64,000 nt of DNA from contig JACPUE010000045.1 in NCBI GenBank assembly GCA_016192425.1, forward strand, positions 1-64,000, in the 5' to 3' direction. Shown here piece by piece: positions 49,911 through 61,158 of this stretch (the stretch's first letter is position 1; each line of letters opens with the position of its first letter). Position numbers and translations under genes: made by a program. Below the pieces are notes generated by a model. The model ran no database searches, was not told where the DNA came from, and saw only the letters and a program-made list of their open reading frames with translations. This DNA comes from Burkholderiales bacterium (GTDB taxonomy: Bacteria > Pseudomonadota > Gammaproteobacteria > Burkholderiales > Burkholderiaceae_C).

Positions 49911-50819
49911 ATGATCGACATCACCGTAGAAAACTTTGAAACCGAGGTCATCGCCGCCTCGATGAACGTGCCTGTGCTGGTGGACTTCTGGGCGCCCTGG
50001 TGCGGCCCGTGCAAGACCCTGGGGCCCGTGCTCGAAAAGCTGGAAACCGAGTACGCGGGCCGTTTTGTGCTTGCCAAGATCAACTCCGATACCGAGCAGC
50101 AGATTGCGGCCATGTTCGGCATTCGCAGCATCCCCACCTGCGTGCTGCTGATGAACGGCCAGCCCGTGGACGGCTTCACCGGCGCGCTGCCCGAGGGCAA
50201 GGTGCGCGAGTTCCTGGACCGCCACGTGCCCAGTGCCGAAGAGGTCCAGGCCGAAGAAGAGGAAGTCCAGGCCCAGGACGCGCTGGCCAGCGGCGACACC
50301 GATGCCGCGCTTGAAAAACTGCAGCACGCCGTGGCCACCGACCCCGCCAACGACGACGCGCGCTTCGACTACGTCAAGCTGCTGCTGCAACTGGGACGCG
50401 ACGATGACGCCAAGGTGGCCTTTGCCCCGGTCATCGCCAAGGCTGCTGGATCGCGCCGCCTGGGGGCGCTCAAGGACTGGATGGATGCTATTGATTTTGT
50501 AGCTGCCAGCGCTGATCCAGAAGGCGCTATAGCCGGATTTGATGCAAAAATTGCTGCCAACCGGCGCGATTTTGAGACCCGCTTTGCCCGCGCGCGCTGG
50601 CTCATGGCCCACCAGCGCTGGCAGGACGCCATGGACGAGCTGCTCGAAATCCTCATGCGCGACAAAGGCTGGAGCGACGAAGCTGCGCGCAAGACCTGCG
50701 TCTCCATCCTCGAAATCATCGAGCCGCCCAAGCCCAAGGTCGCCGAAGGCCAGATACCGCCCGAAGACCCCGTGGTGGCCACCTACCGCAGGCGCCTGAG
50801 CTCCGTCGTGCTGAGCTGA
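49911..50819 (+). CDS. Thioredoxin-domain co-chaperone (CnoX/YbbN-like)
   Basis: A 302-residue protein: an N-terminal thioredoxin domain with an intact active site (WCGPC, Cys31 and Cys34), an acidic linker near residues 115-130, and a C-terminal TPR-like region ([40 protein letters not shown]). The architecture matches CnoX, a redox-active holdase that works with GroEL; E. coli CnoX lacks the CGPC pair, so this form is closer to redox-competent versions. Residues 192-211 are coded by a copy of the 59-bp repeat (50485-50543). Confidence 0.9.
50485..50543 (+). repeat. 59-bp element copy R5 inside the thioredoxin gene
   Basis: ATGCTAT-TGATTTT-GTAGCTG-CCAGCGC...GAAGGCG-CTATAGCC...ATTTGAT aligns without gaps with the other copies. 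In the gene frame it reads [19 protein letters not shown], closely matching the peptide of the leuS copy. It lies between two TPR-like helices. Confidence 0.68.
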
Positions 50820-50840
50820 CAGGCGCGGACCCCGCCGCGT

Positions 50841-51221
50841 TCAGGCCGCCTGGCGCGCATGCCCCAGGTGCTGCGCGGCGCGCACGCCCTCTGTGGCCAG
50901 CACCCGGCTGGGGTTGAGGCTGCGGATGGGAATCGAGCAGTCCTGCGGAATGCCGCCCGAGAGCTGCAGCGCCAGGTAGCGCCCGCAGCACACGCGCAGA
51001 AACGACGCAAAATTGTCCACGCTGCCGCGCTCGGCCAGCAGTTCGTCGTGCAGGCGTGCGCACAACTGGGGCACGCCCATGCCGTCGCGCGCGGCAATCT
51101 CCTCCAGCACCTGCCAGAACAGGTTTTCCAGCCGGATGCTGGTGGCCACCCCGTGCAGCCGCACCGAGCGTGCGCGGCAGGCGTAGAGGGCGGGGTCGGC
51201 ACTGATAAAGACCTGGCACAT
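50841..51221 (-). CDS. Ribbon-helix-helix domain protein (RHH_4 type)
   Basis: A 126-residue protein with the RHH_4 pattern: YACRARSVRLHGVATSIRLE, FWQVLEEIAARDGMGVPQLC ARLHDEL, NFASFLRVCCGRYLA. Such small proteins are presumed DNA-binding regulators. The C-terminal 40 residues are variable. It lies between the DJ-1 gene (same strand) and the convergent CnoX-like gene, ending 21 bp from it. Target unknown. Confidence 0.82.
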   Translation of the reverse strand: MCQVFISADPALYACRARSVRLHGVATSIRLENLFWQVLEEIAARDGMGVPQLCARLHDELLAERGSVDNFASFLRVCCGRYLALQLSGGIPQDCSIPIRSLNPSRVLATEGVRAAQHLGHARQAA

Positions 51222-51278
51222 GGCGGGAGTCTCCGGGGGTGGAATGAGGCCCCATCTTGCCGGGGATGGGCGTTTCCC

Positions 51279-57944: not shown

Positions 57945-57963
57945 ACCGCAGGCAGGGCACACC

Positions 57964-58410
57964 ATGGCATTTGGCCGCCTTGAACGCACCCGTGGGGCCG
58001 AGCCCATGAGCGACATCAACATGACGCCGCTGGTGGACGTGATGCTGGTGCTGGTGGTCATCTTCATCCTCACCGCGCCTTTGCTGGCCAGTTCCATCCG
58101 GCTGGATCTGCCGCGTGCCGAAGGCACGGCGCCCGCTGCGGCGCCGCGCACGCTCACCCTGGTGCTGAACCGCCAGGGCCAGGTGTTCGTGGACGACCAG
58201 CCCGTGCCATCGGCCGCCGCGCTGGCCCGCCGCCTGGGCGAGGTGGCGCAGGCGGCGCCCGACACCGAGCTGCAACTGCGCGCCGATGCCGCCGTGCCCT
58301 ATGGCCGGGTGGTGGAAGTCATGGGAGCGGCGCACGCCGCCGGGTTGCAGCGCATCGGCTTCGTGGCCGACCCGGCGGCTGCGCCCGCACCCTCTACACC
58401 CGTGCGCTGA
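57964..58410 (+). CDS. exbD: ExbD/TolR family biopolymer transport protein
   Basis: A 148-residue protein: short N-terminus, MSDINMTPLVDVMLVLVVIF as the single helix with the proton-binding Asp, then a periplasmic domain (LTLVLNRQGQVFVDDQPVP, LQLRADAAVPYGRVVEVMGA). It works with the preceding ExbB-like protein. Confidence 0.9.
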   Translation: MAFGRLERTRGAEPMSDINMTPLVDVMLVLVVIFILTAPLLASSIRLDLPRAEGTAPAAAPRTLTLVLNRQGQVFVDDQPVPSAAALARRLGEVAQAAPDTELQLRADAAVPYGRVVEVMGAAHAAGLQRIGFVADPAAAPAPSTPVR

Positions 58411-58485
58411 GCGGCCCACCCGCCAGCGCCTAAAATCCAGGCAGGGCCGCGTGCTGCGGCCATTCACCATCCATTGCAGGCATTC

Positions 58486-61158
58486 ATGCAAGACAAGTAC
58501 CAACACACCGAGGTCGAGCGCGCCGCGCAGGCCCATTGGACGGCTATCGACGCCTACCGCGTGACCGAAGACGCGGGCAAGAAGAAGTTCTACGCCTGCT
58601 CCATGCTGCCCTACCCCAGCGGCAAGCTGCACATGGGCCATGTGCGCAACTACACCATCAACGACATGCTCACGCGCCAGCTGCGCATGAGCGGCTACAA
58701 CGTGCTCATGCCCATGGGCTGGGACGCCTTTGGCCTGCCGGCCGAGAACGCGGCGCTGAAGAACGGCGTGCCGCCCGCCAAGTGGACCTACGAAAACATC
58801 GCCTACATGAAGGGGCAGTTGCAGGCGATGGGGCTGGCCATTGACTGGAGCCGCGAGATTGCGGCTTGCGATCCGGATTACTACAAGTGGAACCAGTGGC
58901 TGTTCCTCAAGATGCTGGAAAAGGGCATTGCCTACCGCAAGACCCAGATCGTGAACTGGGATCCGGTGGACCAGACCGTGCTGGCCAACGAGCAGGTCGT
59001 GGACGGGCGCGGCTGGCGCACGGGTGCAGTTGTTGAAAAACGCGAGATCCCCGGCTATTACCTGAAAATCTCCGACTATGCCCAGGAACTGCTCGACCAT
59101 GTCCAGATCGGCAACGACAAGGCCACGCTGACCGGCTGGCCCGACAAGGTGCGGCTGATGCAGGAGCACTGGATCGGCAAGAGCGAGGGCGTGCGCTTTG
59201 CCTTCACGCATGACATCCGGGGCGAGGACGGCGCGCTGATCCAGGACGGGCGCATGTACGTGTTCACCACGCGCGCCGACACCATCATGGGCGTGACCTT
59301 CTGCGCCGTGGCGCCCGAGCACCCGCTGGCCACGCACGCCGCGCGCGGCAACCCGCAGCTTGCCGCCTTCATCGAGGAATGCAAGAAGGGCGGCACCACC
59401 GAGGCCGAAATGGCCCTCAAGGAAAAAGAGGGCATGCGCACGGGCCTGAGCGTGACACACCCGCTCACCGGCCTGCCGGTGGAGGTGTGGGTGGGCAACT
59501 ACGTGCTCATGTCCTATGGCGACGGCGCAGTGATGGGCGTGCCCGCGCACGACGAGCGCGACTTCGCCTTCGCGCTCAAGTACGGCATCGAGATCAAGCA
59601 GGTGGTGCTGGTCGATGGCGAAACCTTCAACTACCACCAATGGCAGGACTGGTACGCCGACAAGCAGCGCGGCGTGACGGTCAACTCCGACAGCTTCAGC
59701 GGGCTGCCCTACAAGGACGCCGTGGCCGCCGTGGCCCATGCCCTCGCGCAACAGGGCCTGGGGGAACTCAAGACGACATGGCGCCTGCGCGACTGGGGCA
59801 TCTCGCGCCAGCGCTACTGGGGCACGCCCATTCCCATCATTCACTGCCCGGACTGCGGCCCTCAGCCCGTGCCCGAGAAGGATTTGCCCGTGGTGCTGCC
59901 GCAGGACCTGGTGCCCGACGGCTCGGGCAACCCGCTGGTCAAGAGCGAAGCCTTCCACGCTGGCGTGACCTGCCCCTGCTGCGGCAAGGCCGCGCGCCGC
60001 GAGACCGACACCATGGACACCTTCGTGGACAGTTCGTGGTACTTCATGCGCTACTGCGACCCCAAGAATTCGGACGCGATGGTGGCGGGCGGGGCCGATT
60101 ACTGGATGCCCATGGACCAGTACATCGGCGGCATCGAGCATGCGGTGCTTCACCTGTTGTATGCGCGCTTCTGGACCAAGGTCATGCGTGACCTGGACCT
60201 CGTAAAGGTGGACGAGCCCTTCACCAAGCTGCTCACGCAGGGCATGGTGCTCAATCACATTTACTTCCGCCGCAATGAAAAGGGTGGCAAGGACTACTTC
60301 CCGCCACTGGAAGTGACGCCCACGCTGGATGCGCAGGGGCGCATCACAGGCGGCACGCTTTCTGACGGAACCGTATTGGAGTACGGCGGTGTAGGAAAGA
60401 TGGGCAAGTCCGAGCGCAACGGCGTCGATCCCCAGGACCTGATCGAAAAATACGGTGCCGACACCGCGCGCCTGTACACCATGTTTACCGCGCCGCCCGA
60501 GGCTACGCTGGAGTGGAACGACGCGGCGGTGGAGGGCAGCTACCGCTTCCTGCGCCGTGTGTGGAACTTCGGTGTCAAACTGTCTGCTATCGATAAGATA
60601 GCTGCTGACGCAAGCGTGGTAGGCGCTGAAGCCATCAATGATGTGAAATTTGGCAAAGAGGCCAAGGCCCTGCGGCTGGAGATCCACACCGTGCTCAAGC
60701 AGGTGGACTACGACTACCAGCGCATGCAGTACAACACCGTGGTCTCGGGCGCGATGAAGATGCTCAACGCACTGGAGGACTTCAAGGTCTGGGACGGCGA
60801 GGGCGCCAGCGTCGCGCTGATCGAGGGCTTCGGCATCCTGCTGCGCTGCCTGTACCCCGCCACACCGCACATCACGCACCAGCTCTGGAGCGAACTGGGC
60901 TACGCCGCCCACCTGGGCGACCTGCTCGATGCGTCCTGGCCCCAGGTGGATGCGGGTGCGCTGGTGCAGGACGAAGTCGAGCTCATGCTCCAGGTCAACG
61001 GCAAGCTGCGCGGCTCCATCCATGTGCCTGCGGCAGCCGACAAGGCCGAGATCGAGCGCATCGCCCTGGCCAGCGAGGCCTTTGCGGCCCACGCGGGCGG
61101 CGCGCATCCCAAGCGCGTGGTGGTGGTGCCCGGCCGTCTCGTGAACGTGGTGGTTTGA
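58486..61158 (+). CDS. leuS: Leucyl-tRNA synthetase
   Basis: An 890-residue class I synthetase: HIGH motif as HMGH (49-52, in [14 protein letters not shown]), CP1 editing domain ([35 protein letters not shown]), [14 protein letters not shown], and the KMSKS loop, which reads KMGKS (638-642) in [15 protein letters not shown]. The anticodon-binding domain contains a 59-bp repeat copy. The start [11 protein letters not shown] is chosen over an upstream TTG. The Gly in KMSKS is unusual but leaves both Lys in place. Confidence 0.96.
60584..60642 (+). repeat. 59-bp element copy R6 inside leuS
   Basis: CTGCTAT-CGATAAG-ATAGCTG-CTGACGC...GTAGGCG-CTGAAGCC... aligns without gaps with the other copies and retains the GCTAT/ATAGC stem. 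In the leuS frame it reads [16 protein letters not shown], close to the peptide of the thioredoxin copy. It lies at the start of the anticodon-binding domain, which is about five residues longer there than in E. coli (from memory of that sequence). Confidence 0.68.

Follow-up and report, generated by a model that had tools for sequence, protein, structure and literature searches.

The DNA uptake sequences (DUS) of Neisseriaceae and the uptake signal sequences (USS) of Pasteurellaceae are short motifs of roughly 10–30 bp, and Rickettsia palindromic elements (RPE) are dispersed dyad elements that are inserted into many housekeeping genes, where they are translated in frames free of stops and add residues. 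In work on Neisseria, many new DUS look to have been acquired by in-place recombination and not by point mutation (PMC2397512, PMC3630211). Among Betaproteobacteria, a 2017 survey includes two motif pairs among its potential novel motifs, neither with an assigned function: GCTTAT(N)5AAGCG from Acidovorax ebreus TPSY (114 copies, 107 intergenic and 5 in genes; 44 in convergent, 4 in divergent and 59 in co-oriented settings) and ATAGCT(N)22CAAAAG from Polaromonas naphthalenivorans CJ2 (125 copies, 18 in genes) (PMC5217627). The BRE repeat is described as ~90 bp long with 69% GC, often tandem and present in 1–4 copies in two Acidovorax genomes (PMC3110155). The subject of this report is an element of ~66 bp with five copies in 64,000 nt of DNA from a Burkholderiales bacterium (Burkholderiaceae_C; GCA_016192425.1, contig JACPUE010000045.1, positions 1–64,000 of the forward strand; this whole stretch is called the window below), three of them inside the genes cnoX, leuS and purK. 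A search of the open-licence PMC literature found no description of the whole element, its in-gene copies or their maintenance, only BRE and the 2017 motifs.

The element is probably a dispersed, sequence-specific chromosomal DNA signal that overlies genes, arises in place, is maintained as DNA and is read by a clade-specific process. It has sharp ends, with signal from column 1 to about column 67 of the alignment, and the consensus is TTTGCTATTATTTTGATAGCTGCTTGCGCTTATTGAATAAGCGCTAGAGGCCAATTTTATTCAA. Copies have a GC content of 41.9% (vs 65.1% for the window) and non-coding copies share a mean pairwise identity of 64%. The genome of origin (own genome, G000) contains at least 150 matches (E-values 1.7e-23 to 0.005 among the matches listed), of which 141 of the 150 listed were retrieved and classified and nine were left out. 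With a weight matrix built from 104 non-coding copies, 45 copies scoring ≥20 were found in 400 kb of the related genome G022 after removal of duplicates and edge copies. In 360,134 bp from element-free relatives (706,660 positions, both strands) no position reached −10 and the maximum was −16.5, against a background with per-genome means near −120 and a standard deviation of ~21.

The two in-gene copies pointed out in an earlier note on this DNA, made from the letters alone, were recovered, with both positions and translations confirmed, by a profile (R1) built from eight other copies, both of these two being excluded from the building. The first (50484–50547, + strand; R1 58.6 bits, E 5e-18; matrix score 62; element frame +0) lies in the gene for the thioredoxin and TPR protein CnoX, in an open reading frame (ORF) running stop to stop from 49860 to 50816 on the + strand (start codon 49887 in the ORF list; ORF list, codon model and family scan), and falls between two TPR matches in a Pfam scan. 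The second (60583–60646, + strand; R1 18.2 bits, E 0.001 for the window; matrix score 34; element frame +0) lies in leuS (ORF as used 58585–61155, + strand, within the listed ORF 58474–61158; TIGR00396, E 4e-296) and is degenerate yet far above chance, although weaker than, and outside, the genome matches listed. A third copy (48581–48644, + strand; R1 33.2 bits; element frame −2) is read antisense in purK (48151–49410, − strand, stop to stop; NF004677, E 4e-187). The remaining two are an intergenic copy between convergent genes (6309–6372, − strand; R1 76.2 bits), one of the eight used to build R1, and a copy at a gene end (39084–39147, + strand; R1 51.8 bits), inside which the upstream frame stops (stop 39091–39093). 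The earlier note had also ascribed the residues shared by CnoX and LeuS to the DNA element, which the two matrix scores bear out when set against the control maximum, and had described the peptide as Ala-rich and helix-forming or linker-like; agreeing with this, the predicted CnoX structure places it at the end of one helix (190–207), a loop and the start of the next (214–224).

Coding calls, made with a codon model for which the window served as training data, give 27 in-gene copies in the own genome, LeuS and CnoX included: 23 by the codon-model threshold and four added by eye (RND adaptor, RsmB, AcpS and MeaB). Family scans name most of the host genes, which besides leuS and cnoX encode YhhN lysoplasmalogenase, an RlmI-like methyltransferase, an APH-family kinase, a penicillin-binding protein (1C type, PBP1C), a short-chain dehydrogenase (SDR), ThiL, MurD, RecC, PurL, CDP-glucose 4,6-dehydratase, AcpS, AnmK, enoyl-CoA hydratase, an RND adaptor, CobU, a MocR/PdxR-like regulator, TruB, DapF, MetG, HemD, MeaB, acyl-CoA dehydrogenase (ACAD), AceF, RsmB and PurK. 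Twenty-five genes were compared with the element-rich genomes G022, G023 and G035, with G002 and G004, which belong to the same genus and are almost element-free, and with the outgroups G030, G032, G039 and G042, which have no element matches; LeuS and CnoX were compared across up to 30 genomes. Of these genes, 20 both carry a copy internally and have a comparator free of the element; LeuS and CnoX bring the number to 22.

A whole inserted element is expected to add about 21–22 codons, but the largest shortfall of an element-free orthologue in the 22 genes is 17 codons. Seven of the 20 genes (RlmI, RfbG, AnmK, TruB, ACAD, RsmB and PurK) have an element-free orthologue outside the genus that is equal in length across the copy ±12 residues, and the element-free CnoX of G026 is likewise equal, giving 8 of 22; in SDR, ThiL, MurD, HemD and LeuS equal length is seen in the G002/G004/G007 clade only. 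For PurK, no gap falls within the copy in alignments with the orthologues of G030, G032 and G042 or with the solved structure 4izo, and the same is true of AnmK aligned with structure 3qbw; the length differences from solved structures at the copy are two residues for RsmB (1sqf) and MurD (7sy9), four for TruB (1r3f) and six for LeuS (6q89). At gapless sites in six genes, outgroup DNA has 12–25 of 64 consensus letters, compared with 39–50 of 64 in the own genome, and matrix scores at the aligned sites are −19 to −116 in G002/G004 and mostly near background (−58 to −146) in the outgroups. Since element-free orthologues outside the genus have equal length across the copy, the element replaced pre-existing coding DNA, and the alignments indicate that the DNA of these genes was overwritten in place.

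Agreement with the consensus hardly differs between codon positions (0.82 at the first, 0.85 at the second and 0.85 at the third; 0.89 in non-coding copies), a pattern that favours replacement in blocks over piecemeal synonymous change. Element-free orthologues are also more similar to generic element peptides at the site of the copy than elsewhere (identity 0.19 vs 0.08), and the two observations together fit replacement where the site was already compatible. A gradual build-up of point mutations constrained by the protein, which predicts third positions nearer to the consensus than first and second, was considered and rejected, the difference being small.

Conserved letters of the element are maintained as DNA inside genes, synonymous positions included, across species and genera. 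Compared with their flanks, copies show more amino-acid change (20.4 vs 11.9% for own-G022; 17.4 vs 8.6% for own-G023) and less synonymous change (13.4 vs 19.8% and 10.5 vs 16.1%, respectively). Columns were split into near-invariant (strong) and variable (weak) by their conservation among non-coding copies. Inside genes, differences in strong and weak columns amount to 30/598 (5.0%) vs 112/483 (23.2%) for own-G022, 20/572 (3.5%) vs 92/462 (19.9%) for own-G023 and 87/480 (18.1%) vs 172/389 (44.2%) for own-G035. At third positions with the amino acid unchanged, the corresponding values are 9/169 (5.3%) vs 26/112 (23.2%), 6/162 (3.7%) vs 25/115 (21.7%) and 18/113 (15.9%) vs 24/55 (43.6%), so that near-invariant letters inside genes change 2.4–5.9 times more slowly than variable ones. 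Because the own copies had been chosen as motif-like, the test was repeated between relatives only. Strong and weak third positions then differ at 11/168 (6.5%) vs 18/113 (15.9%) for G022-G023 (flank four-fold sites 232/1320, 17.6%), at 16/108 (14.8%) vs 27/52 (51.9%) for G022-G035 (flanks 341/959, 35.6%) and at 16.7% vs 52.7% for G023-G035 (flanks 36.3%), weak columns thus lying at or above the flank rate and strong columns well below it. It is this slow change at strong third positions, where the amino acid is unchanged, that argues for maintenance of the DNA itself. All 16 own copies for which both flanks were found in the 400 kb of G022 keep their match there; with no empty sites among these 16 syntenic pairs, gain is not directly observable.

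Both the CnoX and LeuS copies are read in the same frame, as the earlier note said, but this is weaker evidence than it appears, being largely forced by stop codons. The element frames in the 27 genes are +0 (10), −2 (13) and −1 (4), and the core of 115 non-coding copies is open in frame +0 in 85, −1 in 71, −2 in 59, +2 in 41, −0 in three and +1 in one; frames +1 and −0 are thus nearly always closed by stops, which accounts for the frames shared by in-gene copies. Bias beyond stops is mild (Monte Carlo p 0.03), with no copies in the often-open frame +2 (p 0.01). In a second set (80 named loci plus the 400 kb of G022, 1.02 Mb in all, locus-end copies and duplicates removed), for which named loci were chosen by exact pattern and G022 sites overlap own-genome sites, 26 of 160 copies are in genes, in frames +0 (14), −2 (8), −1 (2), −0 (1), +1 (1) and +2 (0), the two in closed-type frames being exceptions. 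At three further sites in the own genome (C18:117102, C11:23636 and C42:26649) coding signal flanks a stop-bearing copy on either side without a change of frame, and these represent either two genes or one interrupted gene.

The proposal of a dispersed DNA element in a betaproteobacterial family, translated inside many genes, agrees with profile searches of the own genome and its relatives. At E 1e-4, matches are present in 32 of 60 genomes. The genus contributes 25 of its 26 genomes (the own genome counted) and other genera of the family 7 of 10, and the 24 genomes from other families of the order have none. G002 is the one member of the genus with no matches; G004 and G007 have one each and the other 23 genomes have 63 to at least 88 each. 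A pattern scan gave, among the matches listed (80 of at least 118 stretches), the named genera Acidovorax, Ottowia, Giesbergeria, Rhodoferax, Diaphorobacter, Paracidovorax, Simplicispira, Ramlibacter and Polaromonas, all nine in the Comamonadaceae, the remaining listed stretches being metagenome-assembled genomes. Among the genomes examined, the element is found only in Comamonadaceae. Blast of one copy matched 3 of 72,556 plasmids and none of 50,697 phage records, and 10 stretches with the exact pattern were found in viral contigs. Random placement also speaks for a maintained signal: among the best 150 copies of genome G003, spacing is random (Kolmogorov–Smirnov p 0.51), 77 are on the + strand, and no replichore or strand bias was seen (arc bias p 0.46, genome length taken as 4.0 Mb).

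DNA resembling the element is present in leuS of G017, G006 and G034. The LeuS tree requires two changes, with the element-free clade nested inside the rich one, and is most simply read as suggesting one gain followed by loss in the G002/G004/G007 clade. LeuS proteins of G035 and G028 (other genera), G002 and G007 (loci L150, L152, L143 and L142) keep nearly the same residues, encoded by GC-rich codons and without the DNA element. The earlier note had held that such residues in distant genera would mean protein-level coincidence; they do occur, but coincidence is not accepted, as G029, close to G035, and many other genomes retain the DNA element, and I read these proteins as probable cases in which the DNA signature was lost and the residues were kept, possibly protein fossils of lost copies. 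The cnoX loci (L169–L192) separate into two lineages within the family, with 77–92% and 48–55% identity to the query, and the element is found in one only.

In many genes the element occupies existing coding DNA with no change in length or a gain below its own length, and its copies sit at places that leave the reading frame free of stops and accommodate the peptide. As to origin, copies would come mostly from replacement that preserves length, through conversion or recombination between copies, and less from insertion; they would be kept by selection or biased recombination, and a process confined to this Comamonadaceae clade would read their letters. Biased DNA uptake or recombination, by analogy with the uptake sequences of Neisseria and Haemophilus, is the foremost candidate for that reader, and a chromosome-organising DNA-binding protein the second. 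Loss of the process, as it seems to have occurred in the G002/G004/G007 clade, would cause the DNA signature to disappear, and residues could remain. The fuller proposal, that a Comamonadaceae clade runs an undescribed ~66-bp genome-wide signal, several times the length of known uptake sequences, spread by length-preserving overwriting of DNA that includes core enzyme genes, held against synonymous drift and writing stretches of conserved protein, with peptides that can outlast a lost system, is put forward tentatively, as possible but the less probable side of the question.

Several points weigh against a maintained signal that overwrites in place. We know of no reader protein or uptake assay for the element, which is also much longer, and sparser, than known uptake sequences. 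Whether element-rich or element-free, all but one of 27 genomes have ComEC, the exception being the incomplete G007, so competence genes fail to separate the two groups. Several deep forks of the LeuS tree are weak, and a tree of joined gene segments from ten genomes needs one change and does not require loss in the G002/G004/G007 clade. For TruB, ACAD, AnmK and PurK, outgroups other than those of equal length differ by 1–4 residues; in 9 of the 22 genes all comparators are of other length, from 17 codons shorter to 23 longer, and insertion plus deletion happened at some sites.

Maintenance as a repetitive extragenic palindromic (REP)-type repeat by a REP-associated tyrosine (RAYT, Y1) transposase, or selection of a hairpin as RNA or DNA structure (terminator or mRNA stabiliser), is an unlikely explanation, although the consensus contains two dyads and non-coding copies lie near gene 3′ ends (median distance 8 nt; 69 of 129 within 15 nt). 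A simple gene caller places 26 of the 115 non-coding copies between convergent genes, 77 between tandem genes (42 co-oriented with them, 35 opposite) and six between divergent genes. None of 16 candidate stem pairs covaries above shuffles in 104 non-coding and 26 coding copies, though RNAalifold on eight copies gave three pairs with double changes; with no Rfam match in the window at the gathering score either, an RNA structure was rejected. Copies also lie inside genes on either strand. Y1 transposases (PF01797) have no match in the own genome, while at least one is found in 24 of the 25 genomes searched and three or four in each of the element-free G002, G004 and G007; they do not track the element, and the RAYT link was rejected.

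The earlier note had likened the element to RPE and their in-frame insertion into proteins. On that view it would be a selfish, mobile short repeat whose in-frame insertion lengthens the protein by about 21 residues before the copy decays. Numerous copies, both intergenic and genic, stop-free frames and extra residues compared with outgroups in PurL (5–7), SrkA (8), ThiL (8), SDR (11–12) and EchA (11), together with 10–16 extra residues in PBP1C compared with G002/G004 and the one 6-residue gap of LeuS relative to 6q89, are all as expected of such insertion. This explanation nevertheless appears improbable: no shortfall reaches the length of an element, conserved columns are maintained and not decaying, and the 16 copies common to the own genome and G022 give no sign of recent mobility. 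It is already contradicted for PurK, RsmB, AnmK and RlmI, and insertion is rejected for at least eight genes by the equal-length element-free orthologues, so that in-frame insertion as the note had it does not hold for CnoX and the seven further genes.

Protein-level coincidence in LeuS and CnoX, for which the similar LeuS residues in genomes that lack the DNA element and a gapless, partly similar CnoX segment in G002, G004 and G027 could be cited, is scarcely credible, as rare AT-rich codons follow the element letter by letter, the score refutes it for CnoX (62, with 34 for LeuS, vs a maximum of −16.5 in 360 kb), and 25 other genes of the own genome show the same element-like coding DNA.

Two further features of the window were noted. 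A second repeat with 72–76% GC lies directly 3′ of genes at 3744–3889, 57097–57240 and 61650–61821, with more copies in G022, and resembles BRE in size and GC, a likeness by description and not by sequence. At 33017–33298, 282 bp lie between 38-nt inverted repeats that are 95% complementary, resembling a miniature inverted-repeat transposable element or an insertion sequence remnant.

If an in-place, maintained signal is the correct reading, a DNA-level system dictates stretches of 16–20 residues in housekeeping enzymes such as PurK, MurD, DapF, TruB and LeuS, repeats inside genes need not be insertions, and each copy is a natural experiment in how far a conserved helix tolerates rewriting. 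The process that reads the signal, and the sequence bias of natural transformation in environmental Comamonadaceae, would then become testable. Caution would also be needed with residues common to unrelated proteins of Comamonadaceae, as they may be DNA-derived.

Compared with described systems, the element has most in common with DUS and USS, which are likewise abundant, dispersed on both strands, present in core genes and between genes, and limited by stop codons within genes. In both cases the motif is conserved as DNA inside coding sequences, seen here in strong vs weak columns, third positions included. The element differs in its length (~66 bp vs roughly 10–30 bp), in copy number (hundreds vs thousands per genome) and in bacterial family, and uptake bias is known for DUS and USS, whereas here the likeness is one of sequence pattern. 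With RPE it has in common a dispersed dyad element translated in many housekeeping genes in stop-free frames, but RPE add residues, whereas the Comamonadaceae element replaces earlier residues and its DNA is maintained. BRE is also a short repeat of Betaproteobacteria, mostly intergenic with some copies in coding sequences (PMC3110155), and is set apart from the ~66-bp element with 41.9% GC by description and not by sequence. The motif GCTTAT(N)5AAGCG is an exact match to the second half of the element consensus. The 2017 survey lists fragments alone, as motif pairs, with no full element, in-gene analysis or evolutionary test (PMC5217627), and what is added here is the whole element, its copies inside genes and their maintenance at the DNA level.

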